From positions 1 through 64,000 of IMG/VR virus record IMGVR_UViG_3300030202_001345: a stretch of 64,000 bases of DNA, one strand, 5' to 3'. A program made the position numbers and the translations under genes. Shown here piece after piece: positions 12,601-63,878 of the stretch (positions within the stretch are counted from its first letter, which is position 1; each line of letters begins with the position of its first letter). The DNA comes from a virus. The notes beneath the pieces were generated by a model. That model did no database searches. It saw nothing but the letters and a program-made list of their open reading frames with translations, and was not told where the DNA came from.

Positions 12601-15600
12601 ATATTTTTTAAACGATATAACACCTTGATAATCGTTCATTATTTTTCTACCGTCTTTAGCCCACTTACCCTCTACAATAGCCTTAGCTTCTTGCATTGAT
12701 TGTTCTAAAGAAGATTTTAAATGTTCAAGTTTCATTGTGCCTACACTACCTGTTTTTTTAACAGCCATAATAGGAACTAATTGTCTACCATAACCTTGTA
12801 TAGTGCTGGAATTAGCCGCTGCTAAATCATATATAGTTCTTGCCCTTGCTTCAAACTCTGCTGGTGTTTTTGCATCATATAGATACTTTTGTTTAATGAC
12901 GCCCATAGCATAATACACATCTGCCTTGTAAGCATTATCGCTTGCATTTATATATTTTTTAAGTGCGCTTAAGTCATTAGTATCAAAATACTTTTTTAAA
13001 GCATTTTTTTGTTGAGACTCAGTCATGAAATCTCCTGGTTTTATATTATCAAATACTTCACCTAAATATTTTTCACCAAGATTATCAATTATTCTTTTGT
13101 ATTGGTTTTTACTAACAGGGCTTTCTGACATTAAATTACCATCTGTAGTTATTTTAGCACCATCAGGACCAACATTTCTACCAGTGCCTCTACTGCTACT
13201 ACCAAACGATTGCAATAAAGTTTCTTTAGTTTTCAAAAAGTCTGGTAAATTTTTAGGATAATATTTTGCTAAGTCTTCTATGTTTTTAAAGAAACCTTCT
13301 ATTCTAGCTGTGTCAAATAAAGAAATATCACCTTGAGTGCTACGCATTGATTTGCCAGTTACTCCGTCTATAATGTTTTCTATCTTAACACCCTTTGGCG
13401 CACCACTAGCTTCAGCTATTTTCATATCAGCTTTAGGAGCTTTTTTAAATGTAGGTGCTTCTGTTTTACCACGAGCAGCCTCTGACTCAGACATTTTAAT
13501 AGACTCAGTCTCTATGAACTTAGCAACATCTGGATATAATTTTCTAAATCCTTCTGGATCTCTTGAGTAATTAGCAAAGGCTGTAAATACTTTTTCTATA
13601 CTACTTAAAGTTTTTGGCTTGTTAGGCGCGTTTAAAATAACTTGAGCCATGCGTGGATTTTTACCATCAGCCAAGTCTCTAATAACAGAATTAGATTCAG
13701 GTCCTGTACCTTGAGCTTCTCTAGCTACTTTGTTTTTTAATCCTCTAAAAACTAATTCAGTTAAACCTTTTATAGTTTGTACTTGTGCATCTCTATATAA
13801 AGCACCAGCTGGTTCTTTTAATATATCTTGTATATCTTTTATACTAAGATCTTTTCTTAATTCCCAGTTGCCACTATTGTTTTTTCTATATAATAATTTT
13901 TTAAGATTGTTTGGTACACCTGTTGCCTTGCCACCAGCTGTAAATCCTTCTGGTATTATATTTAAAACAGCTTGCGCGTTTTTATTTAGATCCGATCTTA
14001 ATTGTCTAAAACCTTCTATTGCAACTTTAGGTAAATTACGTTTTGGACTTGTAAACCACTCAGCTAGTGGATTACCTTTTGAATCTACAATACCATATGT
14101 TTCAGCAAGTAACTTAGCTTCAGCTTCAGTTAAACGCAAAGACTTATAGGTTTCCTTAGACATGTCTCTATTACTTATATCCTTTTGCATTTCAGGTATA
14201 AGATCTTTTTGAACATCTATAGTTAAATCTAATTCTCTAGGATCTGTTTTCTTAACTCTAGGTTTTGGTTTAGGCGCGTCTAAGTTTTCAGCTTTAAAAC
14301 CTCCAGTATCTGCAATACCCCTAATATTACTAATGTCTTCGTTAATACGCTTAGTCATGTCTAACCCAGCTTCCTCGTATATTTCTTTTCTACGAGATTT
14401 AATTGTATTACCAAGGTATGTCATTACCTCTGTGCTACCGTCGTAGTTATCCAGCATACCAGTCTTTCTACCTTTTGCTACTCCTAAAAGTTGATATACT
14501 AAAACATCTGTTATAGCGCTTTGTTGTACGTCACCTAGCTTAGTACTAAAACCTAAAGCTTGATTTATTAAAGCTTGATTATCTTTAATTAAATCATAAA
14601 TATCTTTACCGTAATCACCAGATTTGTTTTTAATATTTTCTGCTAATTCTCTATTACGTTGTTGTTGAGTTTTTAAAAGCTCTTGACCAGCTTTATCTAA
14701 GTTTAATTTTTGTCCGGTTTGAGTGTTAATAAGATCGTATACTTTACCGCCTTTTTGTTTTTGTATTTTAATATCTTTAAAACGCTGTATCATACCAGGA
14801 CTGTATTCACCAGATCCTACGCTTTGTCCATATCTACTTAAAAAATTTATTACTTTTTGTGGTGTGTTTAGATCTGGCAATAAGCCTTTCATTGGTGTGT
14901 CTCCAAGTGTTTTTTCTAAAGAACCATAAATATCTTGTACTATTTTTCCAAATACATTATTAGTAACAATGCTTTCGTAGTTTTTAGGATCTCTTAATAA
15001 ATCTACAACAGCAGCCGTATACTCTTCATTAAAACTATTTTTATCCTGTATTTTTTCGTATGCTTTTTCAACAGCACTTTTTAAACCTCCTTTTATATTT
15101 TTAATACCAAATTGCCAGTCTACACCGTTAAGTGTTTTAGATATGTTTCTTGCTAAACTACCAGACAAGCCAACATCGTTTTTAAATTGTTGTCTCATCA
15201 TTGTGTGAAATATCTCATGAGGCACTGTACCTGGAGTCATCTTGTTTACATTAACTCTAACCAAAGGTGGTTTGCTTCCTCTAAAAACAACTTCTGTTTT
15301 ACCAGATTTATTTAATTTAAAATCAAAAGCAGGTTGATCTGACTTTGTAGCTTTTTTATATTGTCTATTATACTTTTCAAACAAAGACTGAGTATCTGCC
15401 ATTAAAATATCTTTGTTTAAATATCTCTCTCTGTTTTCTGATACCTTTATTTGTTTACTTACTTCTTGATATAACTGTACCTTGTTTATGTATTGGCTAT
15501 CATTTTTTTCAAGGTCACTTCTTTTGCCTTTACTTTCCATCTTCATAATGTCAATAAGTAATTCCATTTGAAGATTCTTTTTACCCTGCATTGTTAAAGC

Positions 15601-18288
15601 AAAATCTGCCTTACGAGACTTACCAGTTGCCATGTGGCTGAAACCAATTAAACTAAATTGTATTGTTTCCATTAAAGCATGCTTAGCCCAGTCAGACATG
15701 TTACCATATTTTTCTTCGACAAATGTTTGCATGTCAGTTTGGCCTAACATAGATTGAACCATTGCTTCTAAAGGCGCAGCAGTTTGAGCACCGGCAGCAC
15801 CACCAAGTCCAGAGTAAAAACCTTTTTCTATAAAAGGATTAAAAACAGCGTACTCTCCTTTAAATATATTTGTTGGCAATACTTTTCTCATAGCAGCACC
15901 ACCCAATACAAATCCAAAACCAGCACCAACCGGCATGTCAACACCAAACAAAGGATCCAACGCTGCCATTTTAGCTTCTTCTTGTAAACCTAATATACCT
16001 AAAGCTTGCAGCTTTTGAAAAGCACTACCACTTACCTGTGTTAAACCTTTTGATTTAGAATAAGCATCAACAGTCATTTTAGCTCTTCTCGCCCTAGCCG
16101 CAACAACTGCTTGTGATAAAGGTGTTACGCTATTTTTACCTGTTTTAGCTAAATACGTAACGTTTTTTAATTTACTTAAATATCTTCCTGTTCCTAAAAA
16201 ATTTCCAGTACCACCTGTTAAATAAGTAACAGCAGCAAGTTCAGCAATCATAGGGACAAAACCTCCCATACCGCGTACTAGTTCTTCTCCAAAACCTACT
16301 TCAAAAGCTTCTTCTTGTTCTGTGGTAAGCTCTATTGGTTTTTCACCTTCTTCTAACGTAGAATTAATATTACTAATTAAGTCTTGAGTTCGGTTTAATA
16401 CGTCTCTGGTAGTTTCTATTTCAATAGCCTCACCTCCGAAAGTAGGTAAAGCCTCACCAAGACCTTCTACAAAATTCATTATCATGTTTCCGTTTAGCGC
16501 TAAATCATTTGCGCTTAGAGAACCTGGATCTACATTTAATAAATATAATTCTTTCCAGGCTTCACGTTGTACTTCTAATCTTTTTTGTGTTTCTTTAAAG
16601 TTAGCAACAGTTGCGTTTAAACCTCTAGCGTCTGGAGCACCTTCAATTCCTGATATTTCTTTTAAATCTTTTATTTCTTTATCAGCGCTATAGCCACCAT
16701 AAAATTGATTGTAACCTTTTAATGAACCTAACCAGGGGTCAATACCTCTTGACAGCTTCATCATGTCTTTCATCTTAACACCTCTAACAACATAAAAATC
16801 TCCTCCAGTACCACTAGCTTCTAGGTTTGGTTTATAACCATACTGTTTTAATTTTTCTAATTGCTTTGAGAAACTTACTCTTATATCAAATTTAATATCG
16901 TTTATATCTTTTTTAAACTCTCCGTACTCCATGTTAAACACATTGTACTTGGATTTAACAGTAGCAAAATCATTGTTCTTCATTATTTCTTGAAGATTTA
17001 CTTTTGCTATATTATACTTATCGGTTAAGTCTTCTTCATCTCTTACTATTATACCACCCTCTTCACCAACCGGTACTATTCTTCTTCTACCTGTTTCTAG
17101 ATCAAATAAAAATTTAGTATTTTTACCAAATATTTCTTTCATCAATAGATCTCTTCTTGCTTCTAGTTTTTTGATTTCATTAACAGTGCCTCCATACTCT
17201 CCGTAACCTAAGTTTTGAAAGTTTTCATTAAGAGTTATTTCCTTGTTTATAAGTGAGGCATTTATACTTGCTAGTTCTTTTTCTTTAGGATTTACAATTT
17301 CTTGTATTTGTTGAATTTTTAAATTTTGTAAAGCTAGTGAGCTGTTTTCGTTCTCTAGTAATGGTAAGTATTGTTGCTCATAAACTCTATCAAAATTATC
17401 TTTTACTTCGTTTAATTGAATATCTTCTATTATGCTATTTACTTTTTTAGTTATTTGATATTCAGGTAAATAACCACCATTATCTTTATATAATTGTGAA
17501 ACGTTTTTTCTAACATATTTTTGAAAGTCAGCAGATTTAGATCCTTTCATTATACTATTTATAGGCATATAAGAATCAACACTAAGATCTTCTTCATCTA
17601 AAAAATCTATTTTCAATTGAGGTATGTTAGTTAAAACTTCTTCTTCAAAAACTTCCACGTTTTGATTAAATTGTTTTTGAGCCTCTGAATCAAAATTTAA
17701 TTTTAAAAATTCGTTTATTTGCCCTTCACCAGTGTGAGTAGGTTTGTCTATTAAACCTACCGCTTGACCTAACCTTAATGCTAAACCGGTAGCATTAATA
17801 CCACCACCTGGGGGTGATGGCCCTTCATAATACTCTGGGTTTAAAGCTACTTCTATTTTGTTTCCATTTAAAGCTTCTATACCAATTCTACTAGAACCTC
17901 TTTTTGTAAAGCTAAATCCTCCATTTTCTCCACCATACAATGTATTATACGCATTGACTAAGTCCTGCGTATCTTGTGATTTAAAATCTGGAATTTCAAT
18001 TATATCAGTATATTTTCTATCTTCAGGTATAACAACCTCTGTTTTACTAGGTGTTACAACTTCCCACTCATCAATATTTAATTCCGATGAAGAGTTTTCC
18101 GAATCTGATTCCATATTCTCGGATGCTACCGGGGTTATTGGTGTTACAGTCGCATCCTCTGCCACAACACCTTCTGCTTTTTTTGAGTAACCTAGGTTAG
18201 CTGCTTCAGTTTCCCAATCGTCACCAAACATATCTTTTAAAGATTGTACAGTTACCTCGTTACCATCTCCATCTATGTATATTTCCAT
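9679..18288 (-). CDS. giant 2869-aa internal virion/polyvalent protein
   Basis: The largest gene in the window. Visible parts are an acidic, low-complexity N-terminus, Ala/Gly-rich hydrophobic helices near residues 690-880, a zinc-peptidase-like motif PHEIFHTM near residue 1025, and a HAD phosphatase-like domain near 2040-2175 (VYDFDDTLARS, then VLTARPQ, then FYFVDD). Long Lys/Glu-rich helical stretches lie between, and the C-terminal third has membrane-like helices. The motif LNIDEWE occurs at residues 70-76 and again as the last seven residues. Giant proteins at this position in podoviruses are carried in the capsid and ejected into the cell. That role, and enzyme activity, are inferred. 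No RNA polymerase signature was found. Confidence 0.7.
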   Translation of the reverse strand: MEIYIDGDGNEVTVQSLKDMFGDDWETEAANLGYSKKAEGVVAEDATVTPITPVASENMESDSENSSSELNIDEWEVVTPSKTEVVIPEDRKYTDIIEIPDFKSQDTQDLVNAYNTLYGGENGGFSFTKRGSSRIGIEALNGNKIEVALNPEYYEGPSPPGGGINATGLALRLGQAVGLIDKPTHTGEGQINEFLKLNFDSEAQKQFNQNVEVFEEEVLTNIPQLKIDFLDEEDLSVDSYMPINSIMKGSKSADFQKYVRKNVSQLYKDNGGYLPEYQITKKVNSIIEDIQLNEVKDNFDRVYEQQYLPLLENENSSLALQNLKIQQIQEIVNPKEKELASINASLINKEITLNENFQNLGYGEYGGTVNEIKKLEARRDLLMKEIFGKNTKFLFDLETGRRRIVPVGEEGGIIVRDEEDLTDKYNIAKVNLQEIMKNNDFATVKSKYNVFNMEYGEFKKDINDIKFDIRVSFSKQLEKLKQYGYKPNLEASGTGGDFYVVRGVKMKDMMKLSRGIDPWLGSLKGYNQFYGGYSADKEIKDLKEISGIEGAPDARGLNATVANFKETQKRLEVQREAWKELYLLNVDPGSLSANDLALNGNMIMNFVEGLGEALPTFGGEAIEIETTRDVLNRTQDLISNINSTLEEGEKPIELTTEQEEAFEVGFGEELVRGMGGFVPMIAELAAVTYLTGGTGNFLGTGRYLSKLKNVTYLAKTGKNSVTPLSQAVVAARARRAKMTVDAYSKSKGLTQVSGSAFQKLQALGILGLQEEAKMAALDPLFGVDMPVGAGFGFVLGGAAMRKVLPTNIFKGEYAVFNPFIEKGFYSGLGGAAGAQTAAPLEAMVQSMLGQTDMQTFVEEKYGNMSDWAKHALMETIQFSLIGFSHMATGKSRKADFALTMQGKKNLQMELLIDIMKMESKGKRSDLEKNDSQYINKVQLYQEVSKQIKVSENRERYLNKDILMADTQSLFEKYNRQYKKATKSDQPAFDFKLNKSGKTEVVFRGSKPPLVRVNVNKMTPGTVPHEIFHTMMRQQFKNDVGLSGSLARNISKTLNGVDWQFGIKNIKGGLKSAVEKAYEKIQDKNSFNEEYTAAVVDLLRDPKNYESIVTNNVFGKIVQDIYGSLEKTLGDTPMKGLLPDLNTPQKVINFLSRYGQSVGSGEYSPGMIQRFKDIKIQKQKGGKVYDLINTQTGQKLNLDKAGQELLKTQQQRNRELAENIKNKSGDYGKDIYDLIKDNQALINQALGFSTKLGDVQQSAITDVLVYQLLGVAKGRKTGMLDNYDGSTEVMTYLGNTIKSRRKEIYEEAGLDMTKRINEDISNIRGIADTGGFKAENLDAPKPKPRVKKTDPRELDLTIDVQKDLIPEMQKDISNRDMSKETYKSLRLTEAEAKLLAETYGIVDSKGNPLAEWFTSPKRNLPKVAIEGFRQLRSDLNKNAQAVLNIIPEGFTAGGKATGVPNNLKKLLYRKNNSGNWELRKDLSIKDIQDILKEPAGALYRDAQVQTIKGLTELVFRGLKNKVAREAQGTGPESNSVIRDLADGKNPRMAQVILNAPNKPKTLSSIEKVFTAFANYSRDPEGFRKLYPDVAKFIETESIKMSESEAARGKTEAPTFKKAPKADMKIAEASGAPKGVKIENIIDGVTGKSMRSTQGDISLFDTARIEGFFKNIEDLAKYYPKNLPDFLKTKETLLQSFGSSSRGTGRNVGPDGAKITTDGNLMSESPVSKNQYKRIIDNLGEKYLGEVFDNIKPGDFMTESQQKNALKKYFDTNDLSALKKYINASDNAYKADVYYAMGVIKQKYLYDAKTPAEFEARARTIYDLAAANSSTIQGYGRQLVPIMAVKKTGSVGTMKLEHLKSSLEQSMQEAKAIVEGKWAKDGRKIMNDYQGVISFKKYLDVIDKLGGTTNTAGLSRMILDLKQLKDYVTVESGFKETLYDKLMQQNAQKLGQSVRKLEVPQLQDAMGRLSLEPSKPNVEIAKYELANPKQTKQSYEADKALAKKSGTLSQIDLSKSELLNNMSNRDKALALARRLKKETKGISVYDFDDTLARSKSNVLYTLPNGKKGKLNATEFAKRSEALEAQGAKFDFSEFNKVIDGKPGPLVPRIKKAIGKFGNENMFVLTARPQASANAIHKFLKGIGIDIPLKNITGLENGSPTAKSNWILDKAAKGYNDFYFVDDAVKNVKAVKSVLDVIDVKSKVQLALQQVDLNKTFNEIIQNKSGIGADKVFGRAKAEVVGRGKGRFDYIVSPGAEDFMGLLYKTLGKGKVGEKQQEFYKKYLNDPFAKAEEMISKDQVKLAQDIKALKKSLGVVPKNLKKTNDTGFTNETAVRVRMWTKMGLEVPGLSKADLRDLNKLVKDNPKLEAFADQLLLTTKNSGWSPPKADWLSGNLTLDARNLLRDVKRSEYLEQYGWTENVNQIFSEANLNKLQAAFGKSYRDALEGTISRMKTGRNRKSRNNLENKVLDYINNSVGAIMFLNTRSAVLQTISSINFVNWTDNNPMAAGKALGNMPQYSKDFLKLMNSDYLISRRNGLKLNISESEIAESGGGRGLINYMLNKGFVFTRYADSFAIASGGATFYRNRLNTYKKKGLSEKVAEERAFRDFREIAENSQQSSRTDKISQQQASDLGRVILAFANTPMQYMRIQKKAYLDLVNGRGNWKTNASKIVYYGFIQNLMFNAIQNAMFGIAFGDDETDDKLMAKSGRVANGMADSLLRGMGLYGATASMVKNTLMKIKQIQEKDGKKAYDAAIFEVLNVSPTIGSKARKLRSAAISAEYGAFNDMEFSLDNEAYMALANIISATTNVPMDRALRKAQNIDGALFDDVEMWQRISMLMGYQDWELGMDRDTTGNKKKKKKESVLNIDEWE

Positions 18289-46395: not shown

Positions 46396-46658
46396 ATCAC
46401 AATCACTACATCAGTATCTTTTACAATGCAATAATTTTCTCCATTTATATCTATTTTGTGATTAGCGCTTTTATCGTAGAATATTTCATCATTTTCTTTA
46501 ATACCACAAACCACATCTCCTACACTTATAACTAAACCTTTATGGTATCTTATATCTACCCTTTGTTGTTTAGCTAAAAGCAAACCACCTTTAGTTTTTT
46601 CTGTACCTTGTTTTTCTGGTTGTATTAAAATGTTTCTACCTATTGCTTTCATCTCCAA
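46392..46658 (-). CDS. groS: co-chaperonin GroES
   Basis: The 88-aa protein follows the GroES pattern: MKAIGRNILIQPEKQGTEKT, the flexible mobile loop KGGLLLAKQQ, the GLVISVGDV strand, and a NGENYCIVKDTDVVIVI end. It is slightly shorter than bacterial GroES (about 97 aa). It overlaps the end of groEL by 23 bases, and the chaperonin-first order is the reverse of the usual bacterial groES-groEL operon. It caps the GroEL chamber during folding. Confidence 0.85.
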   Translation of the reverse strand: MEMKAIGRNILIQPEKQGTEKTKGGLLLAKQQRVDIRYHKGLVISVGDVVCGIKENDEIFYDKSANHKIDINGENYCIVKDTDVVIVI

Positions 46659-48189
46659 TTCTTAAATTGTTAATTACACAATCTGTAGATAATATGGTAG
46701 TTGCAACTGATGCAGCGTTTTTTAAAGCGCTTTTAGTTACAAGCAAAGGATCTACTATACCTTCGTTTATCATATTTACTTCATCACCGGTTATTACATT
46801 TATACCTGTGCCATTACCTTTTGGCTTATTGTAGTCAACTAAACCAGCGTTTTCTAATATAGTAGTAAAGGGATATGTTAAAGCTTTTAATAAAGCCATA
46901 TGCCCTTCTGATTTTTTTACTACAAAAAGAGAAGCGTCATATAAAGCAACACCACCTCCTGCAACTATACCTTCTTTAACAGCTGCTTTTGTAGCACAAA
47001 TAGCATCTTCTATTCTATCACTTTTTTCTTTTAACTCTACTTCTGAGTTGGCTCCAACTTTGACAACAGCCACTTTAGCGGAGAGACGAGCAAGGCGTTT
47101 TTCCAACTGAATGATTTCACCTGGGCTACCAGCTTCTTCCAATTGTTTTTTAACTTCTTTAACCAGCTCTTGAACCTCGCTATTAGATGTATCAACTTGT
47201 ATAATAGTCTCGTTATCATTTGTACTGCTTTTTATACATTGTCCTAAATGCTCTTGTTGTATAATAGTTAAATCATCACCTAGCTCTTCATTTATAACCG
47301 TAGCTCCAGTTAATATTGAAAGATCACTAAGTGTGTCTTTTTTATTAATACCATAAGTAGGAGCATTAACAACGTTAATTTTTATATTTCCTTTTACTTT
47401 ATTCATTGCAAGCGCTGAAACTACTGGTGGTTCTAAATCACCTATAATAAGTAGTGGCTTGTTATTTTTTATTACAAACTCTAAAACACTTTGTATTTGT
47501 CTAATAGTGTTTACTGGTGATTCAATAATTAACACCCAAGGGTTTTCTAACTCAGCAACTCTTTTTTCTTTACTAGTAATAAAGTTATCATTTACAAGGC
47601 CTTTACCATACTGAACACCATCTACAATTTCTACGCTAGTTTCATTGTGTGTAGTTGGTTCCATTATAACAACTCCTGTTTCATTTACAGCTTTAAAAGC
47701 TTTACCTATTATTTTACCTAACTTTATATCGTTGTTAGTTGATATTGTAGCAACTTGATCAATAATATCTCCAGATACTTTTATAGCGTTATCTTCTAAA
47801 TATTCTATAACTTGATCAACAGCATCGTTAATACCTTCTTTTATTTCTCTTACACTAGCTTGTTTTTTACTAGCTTCGTGTAATATAGCGTGCGCTAGCA
47901 CTGTTGCTGTTGTTGTTCCATCACCTGCTTCTTGCACTGTTTGTTTAGCAGCTTGCTTTAGCAGTGTAGCACCCATGTTTTCTACAGGGTCTAATAAAAC
48001 AATAGACTCTGCAACAGTTACACCGTCTTTTGTTATAATAGGTTTTCCGTTTTGATTCTCCAGTATAACACACTGGCCGCTAGCCCCAAGAGTGGAGCTA
48101 ACAGCTTTAGTGAGTTTATCTATACCGTTGAATATCTTTTCCTTGGCTTGATCACCAAAGTTAAGATTTTTTACAATCTTATCTGACAT
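46636..48189 (-). CDS. groL: chaperonin GroEL
   Basis: A 517-aa group I chaperonin. Nucleotide-site features are KDGVTVAE near 50, DGTTTATVL near 87-93, RIEDAICATK and VAGGGVALYD. The apical and intermediate segments are complete. It lacks the Gly-Gly-Met tail of bacterial GroEL and ends INNLRIGDESNR, so chamber-tail contacts differ. With groES it should fold virion proteins, possibly the capsid. It is rapidly recognisable but not a close copy of any GroEL I can name, so it is unlikely to be a recent host acquisition. Confidence 0.93.
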   Translation of the reverse strand: MSDKIVKNLNFGDQAKEKIFNGIDKLTKAVSSTLGASGQCVILENQNGKPIITKDGVTVAESIVLLDPVENMGATLLKQAAKQTVQEAGDGTTTATVLAHAILHEASKKQASVREIKEGINDAVDQVIEYLEDNAIKVSGDIIDQVATISTNNDIKLGKIIGKAFKAVNETGVVIMEPTTHNETSVEIVDGVQYGKGLVNDNFITSKEKRVAELENPWVLIIESPVNTIRQIQSVLEFVIKNNKPLLIIGDLEPPVVSALAMNKVKGNIKINVVNAPTYGINKKDTLSDLSILTGATVINEELGDDLTIIQQEHLGQCIKSSTNDNETIIQVDTSNSEVQELVKEVKKQLEEAGSPGEIIQLEKRLARLSAKVAVVKVGANSEVELKEKSDRIEDAICATKAAVKEGIVAGGGVALYDASLFVVKKSEGHMALLKALTYPFTTILENAGLVDYNKPKGNGTGINVITGDEVNMINEGIVDPLLVTKSALKNAASVATTILSTDCVINNLRIGDESNR

Positions 48190-54931: not shown

Positions 54932-55255
54932 GTTTGTTTTTTTAGTTGTTATGTTTTACATGTGCGTACCATAGTTATATATACTCACAGGTTTTGAAGC
55001 GAATTTACACTAATAATCGTATATTACAGACGTATAGTGACAAAAGCCTATTACTTATATATACTATATAGCTACTGTCATATAAAATTGTTATGTATAG
55101 AGAGGTATAGTGTAGCACCTCACCTTTTTATCTGTAATCCTTATTTAAAATTCGTTTTACTTTTGCGGGTTCGCCTTGTTTTCCACGTTTCGATGCGTAT
55201 ATACTCGTTTTATCGCGTATTTGCCCCCGCCTTTATGACTTTTCCTACGGGACTA

Positions 55256-55283: not shown

Positions 55284-55295
55284 TACTAGTATATT

Positions 55296-55332
55296 ACAGA
55301 CATATTACTACAATAAATGGATAATATATATG
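55296..55332 (+). promoter_or_regulatory. bipartite element copy 1
   Basis: ACAGACA at 55296-55302, exactly 14 bases, then ATGGATAATATATATG. The last positions differ from the other copies. It is the furthest from any gene start, so its role may differ. Confidence 0.5.
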
Positions 55333-55408
55333 TAATCAATTAGATAATGAGAGTCAAAGCGGAATACATACTAACTAAAATAAATAAGTAAACAAAACTA
55401 CACTCATC

Positions 55409-55446
55409 ACAGACAAAATATAACACTAATTGGATAATAATATAAA
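55409..55446 (+). promoter_or_regulatory. bipartite element copy 2
   Basis: ACAGACA, 14 bases, then TTGGATAATAATATAAA at 55430-55446, 21 bases before the first rightward gene at 55468. The distance from the first box to the inner GATAAT is about 17 bases, like a promoter -35 to -10 gap. Confidence 0.6.
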
Positions 55447-55467
55447 TACTAATAAATAATAAATATC

Positions 55468-55698
55468 ATGAGTAAATTAAATTCTAAAAGATTCGTCGTA
55501 AGACAATCACTAATCGGTAAAAACCAAGTAATCAATGTTGAATTCAAAAGCGGAAAGACTTTCACTTACAATCACGATAAAGTGTATGAGCTAATGAAAG
55601 ATAACTTATCAAAGTTAAACTGCTGGGAAAAGTATAAGTCTTACACTTCAAGTACTTCAATTCCAAGAGTATTACAAGGTGAAGTAGAAGTATTGTAA
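55468..55698 (+). CDS. first early-right protein, unknown
   Basis: A 76-aa basic protein (LNSKRFVVRQSLIGKNQV, then VEFKSGKTFTYNHDKVYELM). No domain is recognised. It lies 21 bases downstream of the bipartite element and begins the plus-strand accessory block, so it may be expressed very early. Confidence 0.6.
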   Translation: MSKLNSKRFVVRQSLIGKNQVINVEFKSGKTFTYNHDKVYELMKDNLSKLNCWEKYKSYTSSTSIPRVLQGEVEVL

Positions 55699-55699
55699 C

Positions 55700-55880
55700 A
55701 AGTATTTCTACTAACTAAGTGGCGCGTTGAGCTGTGTAGCATCACCACTATAAATAACGTTGAACAGAGCAATATGGGTAACTACATGGACAGTAGCGTA
55801 TCATACAATGGCTGCAAGCTGGCTTCGGTTGGCAGTGTAAGTTGTGTACGGCGTAGAGGTTCGAATCCTCTCTTATCCAC
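55700..55880 (+). ncRNA. unusual RNA with tRNA-like 3' end (copy 1)
   Basis: The 3' end holds a canonical T arm (stem AGAGG/CCTCT, loop TTCGAAT), then CTTATCC and ACT. GGGTAA near 55776 can pair with TTATCC to form an acceptor-like stem about 104 bases long in total. Between them CTGC/GCAG and ATACAA/TTGTGT can pair. No normal D or anticodon arm fits, and position 8 is not U. It may be a tRNA-like regulatory RNA, a degenerate tRNA, or part of a larger RNA starting near GTGGCGCGTT (55720). Confidence 0.45.
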
Positions 55881-55901
55881 TAATAATAAATAAATATAAC
55901 T

Positions 55902-56108
55902 ATGTCAAATTTCAAATTCAGAGGATTTATTCCTGCAGTAACTAAATACGTAAAATCAAAACCACTAGCAGAATTAGTGGCGGAAGTAATAGCTTTCGGA
56001 GTACTAATGCCATTAGCTGTTGGCGGAATAACTTTCTTCGTCTTTATGATGATAACAGGTCAAGTAGATTATTCAGCGATGGATATTAACTGTGGAATAT
56101 GCTACTAA
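55902..56108 (+). CDS. small membrane protein
   Basis: A 68-aa protein with one clear membrane segment (VIAFGVLMPLAVGGITFFVF, about residues 29-48), a basic N-terminus and a short polar tail with two Cys. Its stop overlaps the next start (TAATG). Role unknown; early phage membrane proteins often change host transport or exclude other phages. Confidence 0.55.
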   Translation: MSNFKFRGFIPAVTKYVKSKPLAELVAEVIAFGVLMPLAVGGITFFVFMMITGQVDYSAMDINCGICY

Positions 56109-56257
56109 TGAGAAGTTATTACAGTAAACTACAACAGAGATTTATAGCTCGTGAAGAATACTTTGACGAGCTACTCTTTGGAACTCTCAATGATGAGAAC
56201 TATGACAAGCCAATCACAAACAAATTCAGTAAAAAACTGGATAATAATATAAACTAA
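56108..56257 (+). CDS. small hypothetical protein
   Basis: A 49-aa protein coupled to the previous gene (TAATG). It starts MRSYYSKLQQRFIAREEYF. Its last six residues, LDNNIN, are encoded by the bipartite element box (56238-56253), so a regulatory site overlaps the gene end. Confidence 0.5.
   Translation: MRSYYSKLQQRFIAREEYFDELLFGTLNDENYDKPITNKFSKKLDNNIN
56217..56253 (+). promoter_or_regulatory. bipartite element copy 3
   Basis: ACAAACA, 14 bases, then CTGGATAATAATATAAA ending at 56253, inside the end of the 49-aa gene and 30 bases before the next start. Confidence 0.6.
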
Positions 56258-56283
56258 TTAATAACTTTTAAAACCTAATAATC

Positions 56284-56403
56284 ATGGGACATCAAAATAC
56301 TTACTTACTAAAAATCTCTTTCAGAGTATACAAAAAACATTTTAACTCACTAACTCCTGAAGAAAAAAGTAATGTATGGGATATATACTATGACTTCTAC
56401 TAA
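56284..56403 (+). CDS. small hypothetical protein
   Basis: A 39-aa protein (LLKISFRVYKKHFNSLTPEE, then SNVWDIYYDFY). It lies 30 bases downstream of the bipartite element and one base before the next start codon. Unknown. Confidence 0.5.
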   Translation: MGHQNTYLLKISFRVYKKHFNSLTPEEKSNVWDIYYDFY

Positions 56404-56404
56404 T

Positions 56405-56698
56405 ATGAGTGCAATAAAAACATTTACACACAGAGGCGTTGACTATGATTATCATGAGTGGACAACTTGGAACGGCAAACCTGCAAGTGGTTATACTATA
56501 ACTAACCATCCAACGTTTGCAATAACTAGTCCACGAGTGCAACAACTGTCAACTCAAACTAAAGAACAAGCTATCGCTAAGATAGATGATTACTTCGACA
56601 GAGAAGATCACTACAAAGAAATGGCTAAACTTCACGACGCTGGGTGTCAAGCGTATTACGATTCTAAGACTAGATGGGATAATTTTACAGGCGATTAA
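56405..56698 (+). CDS. hypothetical protein
   Basis: A 97-aa protein from ATG 56405; earlier in-frame ATGs overlap the previous gene. It has aromatic and charged segments (FTHRGVDYDYHEWTTWNGKP, then SKTRWDNFTGD) without a known domain. It is among the larger genes of this accessory block. Confidence 0.55.
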   Translation: MSAIKTFTHRGVDYDYHEWTTWNGKPASGYTITNHPTFAITSPRVQQLSTQTKEQAIAKIDDYFDREDHYKEMAKLHDAGCQAYYDSKTRWDNFTGD

Positions 56699-56714
56699 CA
56701 TTAAATAATTAACT

Positions 56715-56852
56715 ATGCAATTTATACTAACATGCCCTAACGGCAAAGTGATCGATATGTCTCACTACATTTCTCAACAAATGGAAGGTGAGTTAACTAG
56801 ACAAGATGTACTTAACAGAATAGAATTCTATAAATCAACTAATACAAAATAA
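56715..56852 (+). CDS. small hypothetical protein
   Basis: A 45-aa protein (MQFILTCPNGKVIDMSHY, then GELTRQDVLNRIEFYKS). It sits 16 bases after the previous stop and two before the next start. Unknown. Confidence 0.45.
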   Translation: MQFILTCPNGKVIDMSHYISQQMEGELTRQDVLNRIEFYKSTNTK

Positions 56853-56854
56853 CT

Positions 56855-56935
56855 ATGGAAGATTGGATAAATATGTACAAGACGGGTGAAATAACACTCG
56901 AAACTTTACTCGAACTACTTGGTGGTTACGTATAA
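56855..56935 (+). CDS. 26-aa peptide
   Basis: A very short acidic frame (MEDWINMYKTGEITLETLLE...). It follows the previous gene with a two-base gap. Gene density supports it weakly. Confidence 0.3.
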   Translation: MEDWINMYKTGEITLETLLELLGGYV

Positions 56936-56937
56936 TC

Positions 56938-56975
56938 ACAGACAGAATAATAAATCTATTGGATAATAATATAAA
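56938..56975 (+). promoter_or_regulatory. bipartite element copy 4
   Basis: ACAGACA, 14 bases, then TTGGATAATAATATAAA at 56959-56975, only seven bases before ATG 56983. Box B also reads as a TTG-initiated LDNNIN extension of the next gene, which is probably not translated. Confidence 0.65.
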
Positions 56976-56982
56976 TTTAATT

Positions 56983-57171
56983 ATGCAAAACACATTCAAA
57001 CAAGTTAACAAAACTACTATCAAACTAAATAATACTACCTACAAAGGTTACAACGTAGGCGATCTACCTCCTTCGTTCGGCTTTAAATACAAAGACGACA
57101 AACAAGGTAAATACCAATGGTTTAACTACAACGGTTTAACTTACATAGAAAAAACATTATTACCATGGTAG
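56983..57171 (+). CDS. small basic protein
   Basis: A 62-aa protein from ATG 56983; the in-frame TTG at 56959 lies in the bipartite element. Basic and aromatic (TYKGYNVGDLPPSFGFKYKD, then YQWFNYNGLTYIEK). Unknown. Confidence 0.55.
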   Translation: MQNTFKQVNKTTIKLNNTTYKGYNVGDLPPSFGFKYKDDKQGKYQWFNYNGLTYIEKTLLPW

Positions 57172-57179
57172 TTACTAAT

Positions 57180-57416
57180 ATGAAAGAATTATGTGCTTAT
57201 GCAGATAATAAGCGCAAACAAGCAGCCAAAGAGCACAGGCTTAAAAACGCTCATGAAGGTTATTGTAGTGGACTTACCTCTGCCGAGTACAACCGAGTAC
57301 GAATCAGTGGCAAGAAATCTTATGGAGCCAAGGCACGTAAGTTCACCCATAACCGTATGTGGAAACATCAATCAAGATATTCAGTTAAACAATTAATAGA
57401 AATAGTAAAAAAATGA
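57180..57416 (+). CDS. basic hypothetical protein
   Basis: A 78-aa protein from ATG 57180 (83 aa if ATG 57165 is used). Lys/Arg-rich (KRKQAAKEHRLKNAHEGYCS, then KARKFTHNRMWKHQSRYS). DNA or RNA binding is plausible from charge. It overlaps the next gene by four bases (ATGA). Confidence 0.55.
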   Translation: MKELCAYADNKRKQAAKEHRLKNAHEGYCSGLTSAEYNRVRISGKKSYGAKARKFTHNRMWKHQSRYSVKQLIEIVKK

Positions 57417-57679
57417 GCGATACAGTAACTAAATGGCATGAAATGCAAGATGAAAACAAAGAAATAATAACAGCAGACGAGTCAGCAAAGTATATATTTT
57501 TACTAGATTTTAATGACGGTAAAGTATATAGATATGACATAAGCGTGTTATGTACAGATGAAAACTGGTGGAATCCTGATACAGAGTCTTGTGAAGCGTT
57601 TTTATATGGAGCAGGTCACAAATTAGGTGACTGTGAATGGATGGTAACTAACAATAAAGGAATAGAATTTGGAAACTAA
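57413..57679 (+). CDS. acidic hypothetical protein
   Basis: An 88-aa acidic, aromatic protein (YIFLLDFNDGKVYRYDISVL, then ENWWNPDTESCEAFLYGAGH). The end GHKLGDCEWMVTN resembles small phage proteins of unknown function. It shares a base with the next gene. Confidence 0.55.
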   Translation: MSDTVTKWHEMQDENKEIITADESAKYIFLLDFNDGKVYRYDISVLCTDENWWNPDTESCEAFLYGAGHKLGDCEWMVTNNKGIEFGN

Positions 57680-57858
57680 TGAGTAAAATGAAAGAACTAG
57701 ATTTGATTGCACAAGGTGTAGCAGATCACATGAAAGAAATCATTGAAGACAGTGTTGATTGGCAACTAGCTGACCAACCACTTGACGGTGATGACTATCA
57801 AGAAATGAAAGAGTATGTAATAAATGTTGCACTTAATAAATTATTACAAACAAAATAA
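57679..57858 (+). CDS. small acidic helical protein
   Basis: A 59-aa acidic helical protein (MSKMKELDLIAQGVADHM, then QPLDGDDYQEMKEYVIN). Stop-start overlap with the previous gene. An antirepressor or inhibitor-like size; unknown. Confidence 0.5.
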   Translation: MSKMKELDLIAQGVADHMKEIIEDSVDWQLADQPLDGDDYQEMKEYVINVALNKLLQTK

Positions 57859-57883
57859 ATTATCTTTTGGATAATAATATAAA
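57846..57883 (+). promoter_or_regulatory. bipartite element copy 5
   Basis: ACAAACA, 14 bases, then TTGGATAATAATATAAA at 57867-57883, ending nine bases before ATG 57893. Box A lies in the last codons of the preceding gene. Confidence 0.65.
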
Positions 57884-57892
57884 CAAAAAAAT

Positions 57893-58081
57893 ATGTATTG
57901 TAAATGCGGCACAGAAGTGCACCCTGTAAGATTAAAGCTAGGCTACAAAACTTGTATGCCTTGCTCAACAACTCAAACGTACTCTTATGTACCTATCATC
58001 GAGCACAAAACAGGTAATACAATACAAATAGTTAGCCAAGAAGTAAGTGCATCAGTGCACAAAGCTTGGCGTAGAAAATAG
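57893..58081 (+). CDS. zinc-ribbon protein
   Basis: A 62-aa protein with two Cys pairs, YCKCG at the start and TCMPC near residue 20, forming a likely zinc ribbon, then SYVPIIEHKTGNTIQIV. It is close in style to DksA/TraR-type and phage zinc-finger proteins that bind RNA polymerase, though it lacks their long coiled coil. The stop lies at the edge of the second unusual RNA. Confidence 0.6.
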   Translation: MYCKCGTEVHPVRLKLGYKTCMPCSTTQTYSYVPIIEHKTGNTIQIVSQEVSASVHKAWRRK

Positions 58082-58386
58082 CGCTAATTCGATACGGCGC
58101 GAGGCGGCGGCATACTGGTCACGTTAGTTGAAGGGTAAGGCGGATAAAGCTTATAGGCGATTACCGGAGCGATCACTAAGTGAAGCTCGACCGTGGTGCG
58201 TTATAAGTAGCTATAACTTCAGCAAAACAGAAAGAGCGGATAAATGACAATACTAGTTAACTACCAGTCCGTAACTGCTGCCTTATGGGCGTGAAATGGT
58301 TAGAAGCTAAGAACAGTAACGCACGGCGAAAGCTATGAGCAAACAACTGTGACGCTTAACGCAGGTTCGATTCCTGCCACGTCCAC
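58082..58386 (+). ncRNA. unusual structured RNA with tRNA-like 3' end (copy 2)
   Basis: A 300-base gene-free, more GC-rich stretch. The 3' end has a canonical T arm (GCAGG/CCTGC, loop TTCGATT) and CACGTCC that pairs with GGGCGTG at 58287-58293 (one G-U). Other hairpins are GAGC-GA-TCAC-TAA-GTGA-A-GCTC, GTTATA-AGTAGC-TATAAC and TTAG-AAG-CTAA, with ACAGT/ACTGT enclosing a loop. The start shares GTGGYGCGTT with copy 1. No anticodon arm or tmRNA tag frame fits. Function unknown. Confidence 0.5.
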
Positions 58387-58405
58387 TAAATTAAATATAA
58401 CAACT

Positions 58406-58786
58406 ATGACTAAATATGAATTAGAACAAAGGTATCTCGAAGCAGACTTTGTTTGGAATATGCTAACTAAGTATGGCATACAAGAAATTACTACAATGCG
58501 ACAAGCTAAAAATGATACAAGAGCTTTTAGAATGCCTACAGGTCAAATAATAGCGTCATACAAATCAGGTATGGTACGTAGATGTGACAGTAGCGATAGA
58601 ATATGGCAACTAAATCCTAAGTACAAAACTAAAACTAGATGGGTGTTTCTAACAGAAAATGGCTTAGAAACTAAAGAATATGAAACGTGGGCTAGAGCCG
58701 CTATATATTCTAGACTAGCTAGGTTAAACTTTATACTACAATACTACTTAAGAAATTACAAACAAAATAATAAATCTATTGGATAA
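58406..58786 (+). CDS. hypothetical protein
   Basis: A 126-aa protein; ATG 58406 is chosen because an upstream ATG at 58349 lies inside the RNA. Segments include YELEQRYLEADFVWNMLTKY, QAKNDTRAFRMPTGQIIAS and a C-terminal ARAAIYSRLARLNFIL. Its stop codon is inside the next bipartite element. Unknown. Confidence 0.55.
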   Translation: MTKYELEQRYLEADFVWNMLTKYGIQEITTMRQAKNDTRAFRMPTGQIIASYKSGMVRRCDSSDRIWQLNPKYKTKTRWVFLTENGLETKEYETWARAAIYSRLARLNFILQYYLRNYKQNNKSIG

Positions 58787-58795
58787 TAATATATG
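58758..58795 (+). promoter_or_regulatory. bipartite element copy 6
   Basis: ACAAACA at 58758-58764, 14 bases, then TTGGATAATAATATATG at 58779-58795. The ATG of the next gene (58793) is part of the box end, so any promoter here predicts a leaderless mRNA. Box B also holds the stop codon of the preceding gene. Confidence 0.65.
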
Positions 58796-59029
58796 AAAAA
58801 ACCAAAAACCGTCTACGACAACTTATTGCCCGACGTTAAAAAAGCTTTGCAAACTAGTGCTAGAAAGTACAGTGCTGCAAAAAGATTAAAATATACATTA
58901 ATGTCAAAGTTAATGTGGTATGAACTAACCATCAACGATATTAGAGATTTGATTAGCTACAGCGAACTAAATAGCTGGGAATTAGAAGCTTACTCTTTTA
59001 TGTACGGTGATAAAATTATGAAAAAATGA
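58793..59029 (+). CDS. basic helical protein
   Basis: A 78-aa protein (MKKPKTVYDNLLPDVKKAL, then NDIRDLISYSELNSWELEA). It begins at the edge of the bipartite element and overlaps the next start by four bases (ATGA). Unknown. Confidence 0.55.
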   Translation: MKKPKTVYDNLLPDVKKALQTSARKYSAAKRLKYTLMSKLMWYELTINDIRDLISYSELNSWELEAYSFMYGDKIMKK

Positions 59030-59469
59030 ATAAAAAAATTATTACTGACGATATAATCGACGAAAGATTGGAAGCGCGTGGTGTAGAAATTGATCTTGAC
59101 CATGATAAAGCTTTAGAAAAAATACAAGATCATTATGAGTTTAGACTAGTAAGTGATTGGAATGGCACACCTGACTACAGTATATACACTGAAACCACAG
59201 CAGATGGTTACGAAGTATGGGTTGCTACAAGCGGTGATGGTAGAAATGTATGTATAAATGAGGATGTACACTACTATGAAAACGACTTATCAGAGAAACT
59301 AGTTGAAGCTATGACTGATTACAACGAGTTAATCTATGTAGATGATCTTGAATCTTATTATGTTCAGGACGCGGTTACAGAAGCATATGAGTCATACTAT
59401 AACGACATGAAGCAAGAAGTTGAAAACGAATTAATAGAAGAAGGATATGAACACGAAAAGTCAAATTAA
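59026..59469 (+). CDS. acidic protein, possible DNA mimic
   Basis: A 147-aa, strongly acidic protein (IIDERLEARGVEIDLDHDKA, then ELIYVDDLESYYVQDAVTEA and VENELIEEGYEHEKSN). Very acidic early phage proteins often mimic DNA or inhibit nucleases, but no such family is recognised. It overlaps the next gene by 23 bases. Confidence 0.55.
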   Translation: MNKKIITDDIIDERLEARGVEIDLDHDKALEKIQDHYEFRLVSDWNGTPDYSIYTETTADGYEVWVATSGDGRNVCINEDVHYYENDLSEKLVEAMTDYNELIYVDDLESYYVQDAVTEAYESYYNDMKQEVENELIEEGYEHEKSN

Positions 59470-59710
59470 GCCTAAGTGGTTTAAAGGTAGTTGGTACACC
59501 GAGGGTGATACAGTTACAAATCCCTTTAGTGGCGAGTCATATCCACTAACAGGGCCAGAGTTAAGTATATACGACTTTATACAAGGTATGAACTTTGTGT
59601 TCGCCGCAACACCAAGAAATGTAAATGAACAACAGTTAAAAGATTTTCATAAAGCTTTAAACTGGTTCAGAAAACATAATATAAAAGCATACATGGTCTT
59701 ATTAGACTAA
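59447..59710 (+). CDS. hypothetical protein
   Basis: An 87-aa protein (KPKWFKGSWYTEGDTVTNPF, then ELSIYDFIQGMNFVFAATPR). I recall this arrangement in marine phage proteins of unknown function. It ends just before the tRNA. Confidence 0.55.
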   Translation: MNTKSQIKPKWFKGSWYTEGDTVTNPFSGESYPLTGPELSIYDFIQGMNFVFAATPRNVNEQQLKDFHKALNWFRKHNIKAYMVLLD

Positions 59711-59715
59711 AAAAT

Positions 59716-59789
59716 TGCGCTGTGGAGCAGTTGGTCAGCTCGCTAGGCTCATAACCTAGAGGTCGCAGGTTCGAATCCTGCTGGCGCAC
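59716..59789 (+). tRNA. tRNA-Met (CAT)
   Basis: A full cloverleaf: acceptor TGCGCTG/TGGCGCA with two G-U pairs, D arm GAGC-AGTTGGTCA-GCTC, anticodon stem CTAGG/CCTAG with loop CTCATAA (anticodon CAT, 59750-59752), variable loop AGGTC and T arm GCAGG-TTCGAAT-CCTGC. The terminal CCA is not encoded. The CAT anticodon could be elongator Met, initiator Met or lysidine-modified Ile; no initiator-specific G-C pairs are seen in the anticodon stem, so elongator Met or Ile2 is more likely. Confidence 0.85.
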
Positions 59790-59791
59790 CT

Positions 59792-59992
59792 ATGAAATTT
59801 ATAAAATATACAATAGTATGGATAAGTCAAAATCTAGCTATCCCATTTTGGGTAGTTGGACATATACACTTGTCCATACACTCGTTTCATGATCTATACG
59901 AGCTTCTTGCTAGTATAGGCATGAACTTAATAGTATTAACCGGCTTTATTATAGATTATAAAGCACAAAACACAAATAAAAATGGCAACTAG
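59792..59992 (+). CDS. small membrane protein
   Basis: A 66-aa hydrophobic protein, segments FIKYTIVWISQNLAIPFWVV and LASIGMNLIVLTGFIID, with a polar end. It follows the tRNA by two bases and overlaps the next gene by 11 bases. Unknown. Confidence 0.5.
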   Translation: MKFIKYTIVWISQNLAIPFWVVGHIHLSIHSFHDLYELLASIGMNLIVLTGFIIDYKAQNTNKNGN

Positions 59993-60440
59993 AAACTTAA
60001 CAATGGTCGTAGATAGACGACACGCTGAGGAATCAGACCTTGGTTTTGCAGATAATCCCTCTGTATTTAATGACAAAAGCTATGTAAATATGTATTTACA
60101 TCACGATGGTTATCCTGAATGGCAAGGTGTACAAATAGCAAATTGGCTACAAACTAATCCTAGTCAAGATGGTAGCAGATTAGCCGCTAAATTAGTTCAT
60201 GATATGTACTATGACAGCTGCTACTTATACTCTGATCTATTACACATAGACCATCAATATACTTATATTATATGGTCAGGCAAAAAAGACAGATGGGTAA
60301 GCTGTTGGGACAACTACAATAGCTATAACGTGTTTGTTTTAAAACCAGAAAAAATTATATCTAAATATATGGACGATATGGAATACACTGATTTTGCTAA
60401 CGGAAATACAAGGTATGATAAAATTACAGACATAATATAA
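59982..60440 (+). CDS. conserved-looking hypothetical protein
   Basis: A 152-aa protein with YVNMYLHHDGYPEWQGVQIA near residue 35 and TYIIWSGKKDRWVSCWDNYN near 95. The HHDGYPE block resembles a common phage protein of unknown function. It lies between a membrane protein and the 90-aa gene. Confidence 0.55.
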   Translation: MATRNLTMVVDRRHAEESDLGFADNPSVFNDKSYVNMYLHHDGYPEWQGVQIANWLQTNPSQDGSRLAAKLVHDMYYDSCYLYSDLLHIDHQYTYIIWSGKKDRWVSCWDNYNSYNVFVLKPEKIISKYMDDMEYTDFANGNTRYDKITDII

Positions 60441-60461
60441 ATGAATTTGGATAATAATAAT
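60426..60461 (+). promoter_or_regulatory. bipartite element copy 7
   Basis: ACAGACA, 14 bases, then TTGGATAATAATAAT at 60447-60461, overlapping the first codons of the next frame (M-N-L-D-N-N-N-E-M). A start at ATG 60465 instead of 60441 would put the gene just downstream of the element. Confidence 0.55.
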
Positions 60462-60464
60462 GAA

Positions 60465-60713
60465 ATGTTTGATTTAAGCAAGTTTGATGATTATATAGAT
60501 CAGTTAACTGAGTTAGTATTTGCTCGTATTATAGATAAATACGGTGACATTTACCCATTAAACTTTACAACAAATCAAGAAGAAATATTAGTAAGTGAAT
60601 TAGCTAGACTACAAACACAGCTAGCTATGCTAGAAGATAGACAAGAGTACGAAAAATGTGCTATTGTTAAAATGAGAATAACTAAAATTGAATTAAAATT
60701 AAAAAACCTATGA
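60465..60713 (+). CDS. helical protein with UVR-like motif
   Basis: An 82-aa protein from ATG 60465 (or 90 aa from 60441, inside the element). Its C-terminal helical segment (ARLQTQLAMLEDRQEYEKCA, then IVKMRITKIELKLK) resembles the UVR coiled-coil motif of UvrB and UvrC. Any repair role is a guess. It overlaps the ligase start by four bases. Confidence 0.55.
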   Translation: MFDLSKFDDYIDQLTELVFARIIDKYGDIYPLNFTTNQEEILVSELARLQTQLAMLEDRQEYEKCAIVKMRITKIELKLKNL

Positions 60714-62518: not shown

Positions 62519-63136
62519 ATGTCACAAGATAGAAAAATGAAATGGTTAAATGATAGGAGGATAATATATCGTTATGACGGTATAGATCAACCTGACATTG
62601 AAACCAAACAGTATAAATACTATGAAAATGGTACATACAGCTGCTATCACTTGTTTAATACTAAAGCAAAGATCACAACATACAAATCACTGAAATGGCA
62701 TTTACTTGTATTGTTTTATCTAAATGAAGATAATGAATATAGTTCAAGCCCTTTCTTTGAGCATTTAGCTAGATTTATAGCTAAAAAAGATAATGGCTTT
62801 GTAACATTTTTTATAAGTGAAAAAGCTTTAAATGATATGATCATAGATGTATATCAACATGGTGGTGATGCGCCTAAGAACAAGCTACGTAAAGTTATAT
62901 TTAAACCGTACAATATGCTAACGCTTAATCAAAAGCTTAGTATTGTAGGTAAACTAATTGGTAGACGTAGTATTTGTAAAGAAACAATTTACCAAGCTAT
63001 GATTGACATATCAGAACATCGAAAGATTACAATGCGATGGCTTGCTGAGGTACTCGGTGTATCACAGAGAACAGTATACCGTCACATGTGTGATGAATTA
63101 AAACTCGCAAAACAAGAAATGAATGAGGAAATATAA
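62519..63136 (+). CDS. HTH DNA-binding protein
   Basis: A 205-aa protein with a C-terminal HTH (ITMRWLAEVLGVSQRTVYRH, about residues 173-192) and a larger N-terminal domain that I do not recognise. It overlaps the sigma gene by 14 bases. It may regulate the control region or replication start. Confidence 0.65.
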   Translation: MSQDRKMKWLNDRRIIYRYDGIDQPDIETKQYKYYENGTYSCYHLFNTKAKITTYKSLKWHLLVLFYLNEDNEYSSSPFFEHLARFIAKKDNGFVTFFISEKALNDMIIDVYQHGGDAPKNKLRKVIFKPYNMLTLNQKLSIVGKLIGRRSICKETIYQAMIDISEHRKITMRWLAEVLGVSQRTVYRHMCDELKLAKQEMNEEI

Positions 63137-63878
63137 TATACAAAACTATATTAGGTATAAAGAAGATTTAAAATCTACAATGCCTAAAGAAAAATTTTAT
63201 GATTATTACACCCGTGATGAAATGATAGTAAAGTTTATGCCATTGGTAGAAAACTTAGCTAGAAAATTTTCAACCGGAGATCAAGCTTCAGGTATACTTA
63301 GTATACTAGATTTATTGCAAATAGGCAACGAAGCTTTAACAAGAGCCGTAGATAAACTAGAGTGGGACAAATTAACTGACTCTGAAGATATTGAAAAAAC
63401 TCTTAAATCATTTTTTAGTAAACGTATCAAAGGTGCTATTCGTAGACGAATTGATAGACATAGAGGTAATATGCGTATACCAGAACACAAGATGAATGAG
63501 ATACGTAAAAACCCTAAAGATAAAAAAATGGTTGAAATGTTTTTTAATAGTATATTTTTATCTATTGATGCTCAACCATTGAATGAGGAAGGTGAATCTA
63601 TGGTTCAACAACTTCCTGATAAGTCAGAACCTTACAATGTTGCTTTTTTAAATATATACTTAAAAAGTTTATTAAAGAAACATTTAAACGAAGTACAATA
63701 TGAAGTACTAAGATTAAGCTATGGTTTAGACTGTGATAAGCACTCAGCTAAAGAAATTGCAGCAAAATTACATATCAATGGAACAAGCAATTATGTGCGT
63801 GTTTCAGAGCTAAAAAAAGATGCTATAAATAAGCTGATTGAAAATGTCGATCACTCGCAAGTGCTTGACTATCTGTAA
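63123..63878 (+). CDS. RNA polymerase sigma factor, sigma-70 family
   Basis: A 251-aa sigma-like protein. Region 2 is MPLVENLARKFS then LDLLQIGNEALTRAVDKL, followed by FFSKRIKGAIRRRIDRHRG. Region 4 is near the C-terminus: LNEVQYEVLRLSYGLDC, then AKEIAAKLH and VRVSELKKDAINKL. There is no region 1. It could redirect host RNA polymerase to phage promoters, perhaps the bipartite element copies 3-8 kb upstream. The overlap with the HTH gene suggests joint control. Confidence 0.8.
   Translation: MRKYNIQNYIRYKEDLKSTMPKEKFYDYYTRDEMIVKFMPLVENLARKFSTGDQASGILSILDLLQIGNEALTRAVDKLEWDKLTDSEDIEKTLKSFFSKRIKGAIRRRIDRHRGNMRIPEHKMNEIRKNPKDKKMVEMFFNSIFLSIDAQPLNEEGESMVQQLPDKSEPYNVAFLNIYLKSLLKKHLNEVQYEVLRLSYGLDCDKHSAKEIAAKLHINGTSNYVRVSELKKDAINKLIENVDHSQVLDYL

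Follow-up and report, generated by a model that had tools for sequence, protein, structure and literature searches.

The window analysed here comprises 64,000 of the 64,857 bases of the IMG/VR virus record IMGVR_UViG_3300030202_001345 and carries seven copies of a bipartite DNA element with fixed internal spacing. Judged from sequence and distribution, the element very probably serves an uncultured phage clade as a dedicated class of early promoter. It is most likely read by host RNA polymerase together with the phage's own sigma factor of 251 amino acids (aa), a proposal with about an even chance of being right. The best explanation overall, which we rate slightly better than even, is a dedicated early promoter class at which that sigma would steer the host core enzyme. 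The promoter-like character first suggested for the element in an earlier note is borne out by its position and spacing across the clade, its restriction to a single strand and to early operons, and a limit on start codons at the predicted transcription start (+1).

Copies, anatomy and predicted transcription start

A pattern search places the copies at 55296, 55409, 56216, 56938, 57846, 58758 and 60426, all on the + strand. At three mismatches or fewer, 7 matches are found against 0.21 expected, a number never reached in dinucleotide shuffles, and the whole record has no match on the opposite strand and none to a reversed control pattern. Copy 1 (ATGGATAATATATATGT), with 3 mismatches, fits the pattern least well, and copy 3 has CTGG. 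The earlier note listed the same seven copies, with the third one base off at 56217, and described variation in the last bases of two; the variation exists, but three copies (1, 6 and 7) deviate. It also saw no copies in the late region or the left arm. None occur there, but the "left arm" is the continuation of the same rightward arm. The copies are as follows.

55294-55332, + strand: early promoter copy 1; box A from 55294, -10 GATAAT at 55320-55325, predicted +1 G at 55332; in tandem with copy 2
55407-55445, + strand: early promoter copy 2; -10 at 55433-55438, predicted +1 A at 55445; first gene ATG at 55468
56214-56252, + strand: early promoter copy 3; -10 at 56240-56245, predicted +1 A at 56252; heads a 39-aa microprotein
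56936-56974, + strand: early promoter copy 4; -10 at 56962-56967, predicted +1 A at 56974; gene ATG at 56983
57844-57882, + strand: early promoter copy 5; -10 at 57870-57875, predicted +1 A at 57882; gene ATG at 57893
58756-58794, + strand: early promoter copy 6; -10 at 58782-58787, predicted +1 at 58793/58794; gene ATG at 58793, predicted leaderless
60424-60462, + strand: early promoter copy 7; -10 at 60450-60455, predicted +1 G at 60462; in-frame ATG at 60465 inside the open reading frame (ORF) 60441-60713; last copy before the sigma gene

Across 357 distinct copies, the refined element is TTACAAAC(A/T)AAATACGA-N9-GATAATA-WWAWW-R with fixed spacing. When the first A of ACARACA is numbered 0, positions -2 to 7 read TTACAAAC(A/T)A and positions 8 to 14 read AATACGA. 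Positions 15 to 23 are free, except for a weak T22 and G/A/C at 23, while GATAATA at 24 to 30 is nearly invariant, 31 to 35 are A/T, and position 36 is a purine in 98-99% of copies. ACARACA, originally taken as the upstream box, is present, but the conserved stretch (box A) is longer and reaches 2 bases upstream and about 8 bases downstream of it. The constant spacing with variable spacer sequence holds in the wider set, with 131 copies at the canonical gap and all other gaps, neighbours included, at background.

The start of transcription was predicted from the genes behind the element. The first usable ATG, searched from position 22 onward in 312 copies followed by an open frame, lies at position 36 or beyond in 301, at 30-35 in 11 and before 30 in none. 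It falls exactly at 36 in 32 copies, at 35 in 2 and at 37 in 3, and the class at 36 spans many gene families, primase included. Because of this limit, the spike at 36 and the purine found there, the transcript very likely starts at position 36, which is 7 nucleotides (nt) after GATAAT. Position 34 holds a non-start ATG in 59 of 269 copies, frequently in the form ATGTAA, and such ATGs are practically gone further downstream. Unused ATGs that are tolerated at 34 and vanish beyond it are expected if the RNA begins at 35-36. A start-stop mini-ORF (ATGTAA, positions 34-39) was rejected, since the G at 36 persists in ACGTAA variants and the ATG lies ahead of the predicted start.

The copies sit directly before start codons, in some cases running into the ends of preceding genes. 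Some genes are predicted to be leaderless, including those behind copy 6 (ATG 58793) and copy 7 (ATG 60465), whose messages would be leaderless or nearly so. The predicted share is about 10% of element copies, compared with 5.5% of the mRNAs of Flavobacterium psychrophilum (PMC9723704).

With +1 at position 36, the upstream box TTACAAAC lies at about -38 to -30 with its extension AAATACGA to -22, CAAACA lies at -35 to -30, and GATAAT at -12 to -7, with 17 bp between the latter two. The A at -11 and T at -7 of sigma-70-type promoters are invariant in the element, with G rather than T at -12; GATAAT as a whole is nearly invariant in the 357 copies, and it is followed by an A/T discriminator and the purine +1. 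In silico, the element also agrees with that type in having an upstream box some 17 bp ahead of the -10, a start 6-8 nt after the -10, and a purine at +1.

Distribution in the clade and the phage sigma factor

The 357 copies come from about 75 related contigs, found by a motif search and an independent search with the sigma protein. Full-length genomes contain 5-9 copies, which head early operons, with none in the late regions. The exact pattern occurs in 44 stretches among 2.9 million viral contigs. A mismatch search of 42 of these records finds 1-9 copies in each, with the reversed control near zero, and in nearly every multi-copy record the copies are clustered on the same strand. Some single-copy records look unrelated, such as a repeated group with TTGGATAATAATATTTT. 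The position-weight-matrix scan of the genome and related phages that had been proposed as a check yields 127 copies in 20 phages, the window phage plus 19 relatives; shuffles yield none. By the same matrix, 353 kb of late and downstream DNA contain no copy, save where the early arm of one relative wraps around the contig end.

Two genes near the end of the window bear on how the element may be read.

63123-63878, + strand: phage sigma factor, 251 aa, with sigma-70 regions 2 and 4; proposed promoter reader
62519-63136, + strand: 205-aa protein with a C-terminal helix-turn-helix (HTH); overlaps the sigma gene; possible partner

The sigma gene, which the earlier note did not identify, is the likely partner of the element. 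Both profile and fold identify its conserved product as a sigma factor. The profile search matches sigma-70 regions 2 and 4, and the structural model (mean pLDDT 72) has a best Foldseek E of 2e-7. Global TM-scores are low at about 0.3, as expected if the two domains orient freely. In region 2.4, R107 and R108 are invariant and align with residues of Escherichia coli sigma-70 that read -12; they may suit the G at that position. The protein has no match in 50,697 phage records. The 205-aa HTH protein is present in 31 of 32 related loci.

The motif and the sigma occur together. The search with the sigma protein finds 56 loci, with 208 copies on the sigma strand and 1 on the opposite strand, and in every locus that lacks a copy, no more than 2.5 kb of sequence precedes the sigma gene. 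In the reverse test, 22 of 23 long contigs found by a reduced motif encode the sigma. One contig (L248, record G423) of 129,537 bases is an apparent head-to-tail dimer of a 62 kb genome, with sigma at 20760 and 83045.

A capsid protein is common to the clade and to Elemovirus, Callevirus, Baltivirus, Maribacter phage Panino and MW202828. In these, as in phi14:2 and crAss001, the motif matches only at chance, like the reversed control, and the cultured relatives checked have neither motif nor sigma. The clade, an uncultured podovirus-like group, is linked through its capsid protein to Elemovirus, Callevirus and Maribacter phage Panino. The hosts of this virus group are marine Bacteroidetes, and the clade consists of widespread phages of Flavobacteria. 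In the literature, no paper was found on the promoters of this clade.

Weighing possible readers of the element

The primary sigma of Flavobacterium recognises TTTG/TAnnTTTG (PMC6847099, PMC9723704). The element resembles Bacteroidetes sigma-A promoters, as described in the same papers, in its A at -11, its T at -7 and a box at -12 to -5 relative to +1. It differs in having GATAATA for TAnnTTTG and no TTTG at -33. Promoters of the host type are absent from the divergent region of 31 phages and show no enrichment in the early arms of the clade, with 0-1 per genome against 0.3-0.4 expected. The original view that the element is not of the Bacteroidetes -33/-7 type is thus upheld by the differing consensus and by this lack of enrichment. 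The early arm of Elemovirus has four host-type promoters (0.9 expected) and -7 boxes at twice the expected number. This suggests that a lineage related to phages seemingly using host-type promoters moved its early genes to a private signal.

In the proposed mechanism, the phage sigma would steer the host core RNA polymerase to the element copies, and one signal, repeated 5-9 times, would fire several short early operons. One of these would run into the sigma gene itself, giving positive feedback, and then into replication genes. The first round could depend on sigma carried in the virion or on weak host initiation, and the upstream box may have another phage protein as its reader. Since the element replaces the host start signal and travels with the phage sigma, it points to a virus-specific transcription switch, which no checked cultured relative carries. 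This raises the question of how early transcription gets under way from a signal foreign to the host. For a widespread and uncultured group of Flavobacteria phages, the analysis predicts a map of start sites without recourse to experiment, and it names one protein and one DNA element for testing.

Phage sigma factors with their own promoter class include gp28 and gp33/34 of Bacillus phage SPO1 and gp55 of T4. As in those systems, the sigma gene is conserved alongside a non-host motif repeated before co-regulated genes. Unlike in them, the motif is tied to the early arm and has a long rigid upstream box and a G at -12, the sigma is without a match among the phage records searched, and recognition is proposed. 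In its working, the element would resemble known phage-sigma systems, but we do not assign it to any named one.

Three lineages have an altered upstream box (ATATAAGTTTRATACGA in L116, TCACGGACTTATA in L128 and TTCGAATRTTAATACGA in L135) but keep the -10 element, the spacing and the rest. These lineages form a natural test set for finding the reader of box A. A further promoter-like element faces the late genes.

54972-55010, - strand: single late-side promoter-like element GTAAA-N14-TGTGAGTATATA, with the core TGTGAGTATATA at 54978-54989

Written as TTGTAAA-N15-TGTRAGTATATA, it has the register of the early element (TT..AAA to a G 26 bases downstream), and its sequence is unchanged in L116, L128 and L135. 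A conserved inverted repeat, GTGACATTAGCC...GGGCTATTGTCAC, lies just upstream of it in many relatives.

Several points weigh against a sigma-read early promoter. The region-4 helix of the sigma (YVRVSELKK) is constant in L116, L128 and L135 despite their altered upstream box, and in none of the three does the box change together with sigma region 4. Sigma region 4 may therefore not read the box, and another protein may do so. The late-side element may be a further target of the phage sigma, or its principal one. The sigma gene sits downstream of the promoters that sigma would need, a few Flavobacteria chromosomes have the element without the sigma, and the co-occurrence of motif and sigma may merely mark a single clade. 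The single gap shows none of the spacer tolerance of one bp either way that is typical, though not obligatory, for sigma-70-type promoters, and the boxes hold more information and are more strictly spaced than in usual sigma promoters. Three copies, all before one gene family, have an ATG at 30, ahead of the predicted start, and this family would misfit unless it is read from an upstream RNA.

It is possible, though rather unlikely, that in the same promoter class a separate phage activator, working alongside host RNA polymerase, recognises the upstream box (-38 to -22), and that the sigma serves mainly the late-side promoter. T4 MotA boxes replace the -35 element in this way, and the present element shares with T4 middle promoters an ordinary -10 and a special upstream box in place of a -35. 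The variation of the box against a constant region 4 favours such an activator, as does the constancy of the late-side element across those lineages, which is expected of the sigma's own target; box A, at 17 bp, also exceeds a normal -35 element. Unlike in T4, no activator was found, the spacing is fixed and the expression class is early. As sources of box-A specificity, neither sigma region 4 nor the HTH protein shows a matching change. The recognition helix of the HTH protein is kept in L116 and L128, and the protein was not found in L135.

An unlikely alternative to steering by the phage sigma is a host promoter class, served by an alternative host sigma or regulator and borrowed by phages for immediate-early expression. 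Early genes must start before phage proteins exist, and several Flavobacteriales chromosomes have the element before host genes. A search of 84,980 bacterial and archaeal genomes gives 12 stretches with the element. L162, L164 and L172 are clearly phage contigs by their shared genes, L167 is possibly one, and the rest are mostly chromosomes of Flavobacteria. Chromosomal copies precede host genes in L161, L163, L165, L166, L168, L169, L171, L319 and L320, with the ATG exactly at position 36 in 4 of the 9 (L161, L163, L165 and L320), while genes of apparently one secreted-protein family start at 56 in L169, L171 and L319. The genes behind these copies are of unknown function, apart from one for a TerB-domain protein and one for a protein that looks HAD-like by eye.

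Against a host class stands the rarity of the element in hosts, with 4 of 299 Flavobacteriaceae genomes at one mismatch or fewer (control 0) and essentially 1 of 52 genomes of a second family by profile search. No large host regulon was found among these genomes. In addition, the element corresponds to no sigma motif among the six mapped in F. psychrophilum, as far as the text of PMC9723704 describes them; compared by eye with that text, it lacks the features of SM4-SM6 (-24/-12 sigma-54, TAnnTTGY, CGT-box). At E 0.001, the phage sigma profile finds nothing in the host genomes checked (G044, G048 and G051). The rarity speaks against a general regulon of the host and prompts the idea that these host genes may answer to phage transcription. 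Sigma and promoter could form a private code, with some Flavobacteria genes placed under the phage promoter as leaderless genes and switched on by infection, for example in an alarm or defence response; this we regard as unlikely. The sporadic chromosomal copies are candidate infection-responsive promoters and are directly testable.

A promoter of a T7-type single-subunit phage RNA polymerase is highly improbable. The stretch TAATACGA-N9-G lies in T7 register (TAATACGACTCACTATAG), with AATACGA at the T7 distance from the invariant G, rigid spacing and high information content. However, neither the record nor 12 relatives match the T7-type polymerase family (RNA_pol, PF00940), while T7 itself, as positive control, does. 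If transcription began at the G (position 24), neither the purine and start-codon spike 12 nt further downstream, at 36, nor the tolerated ATGs at 34 would be explained, and TACGA is lost in L128. A polymerase hidden in the late proteins of 2869, 806 or 734 aa was rejected, with no match in Pfam or PDB profile searches. Judging from their position, gene neighbours and alignment, the 806- and 734-aa proteins look like portal and terminase. The 2869-aa protein (9679-18288, - strand) has a variable N-terminus and a conserved last 850 residues with a HAD-like DFDDT motif, and matches no family.

A crAss-type virion polymerase promoter was likewise dropped. Crass-like phages with a virion RNA polymerase (phi14:2, crAss001) also have opposed early and late arms, and a distant structural similarity exists (crAss_MUZ_C), but no homologue of the phi14:2 catalytic subunit was found here, while the crAss001 positive control matched. 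A repeated binding site or RNA-level control element before genes, suggested by copies just upstream of start codons and overlapping upstream gene ends, is very hard to reconcile with the strict two-turn spacing around a free spacer, the -10-like core, the concentration of purines and ATGs at the predicted +1, and the tandem copies before the first gene.

Map of the phage and neighbouring features

Record bases 64422-64839 match bases 1-418 at 82% identity, so the map closes, as a circular or permuted genome with strain variation. The late genes run leftward from 54931 to 9679. A single rightward arm begins at 55.3 kb, crosses the join at 64.4/0 and extends to 9.3 kb, and the element copies lie in its first 5.2 kb. 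Beyond the copies, it encodes DNA ligase, the HTH protein, the sigma factor, primase/helicase, thymidylate synthase, a MazG-like protein and ribonucleotide reductase, as well as an ERF-like protein, identified by eye, after the sigma factor.

Right behind copy 3, a conserved 39-aa microprotein (MGHQNTYLLKISFRVYKKHFNSLTPEEKSNVWDIYYDFY) is encoded at 56284-56403 (+ strand); it is also found in L063, L071 and L074. At 58287-58388 (+ strand), a short RNA resembles the tRNA-like ends of tmRNA with 31-38 bits, under Rfam's 47, and has a very short middle, apparently without a tag frame. It is kept in the early arm of the clade, as in L078, L080, L066, L069 and L070. Another tRNA-like 3' half lies near 55850-55880. 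The late side contains a phage GroEL gene at 46636-48189 (- strand), with 41% identity to GroEL of Flavobacterium phage immuto.

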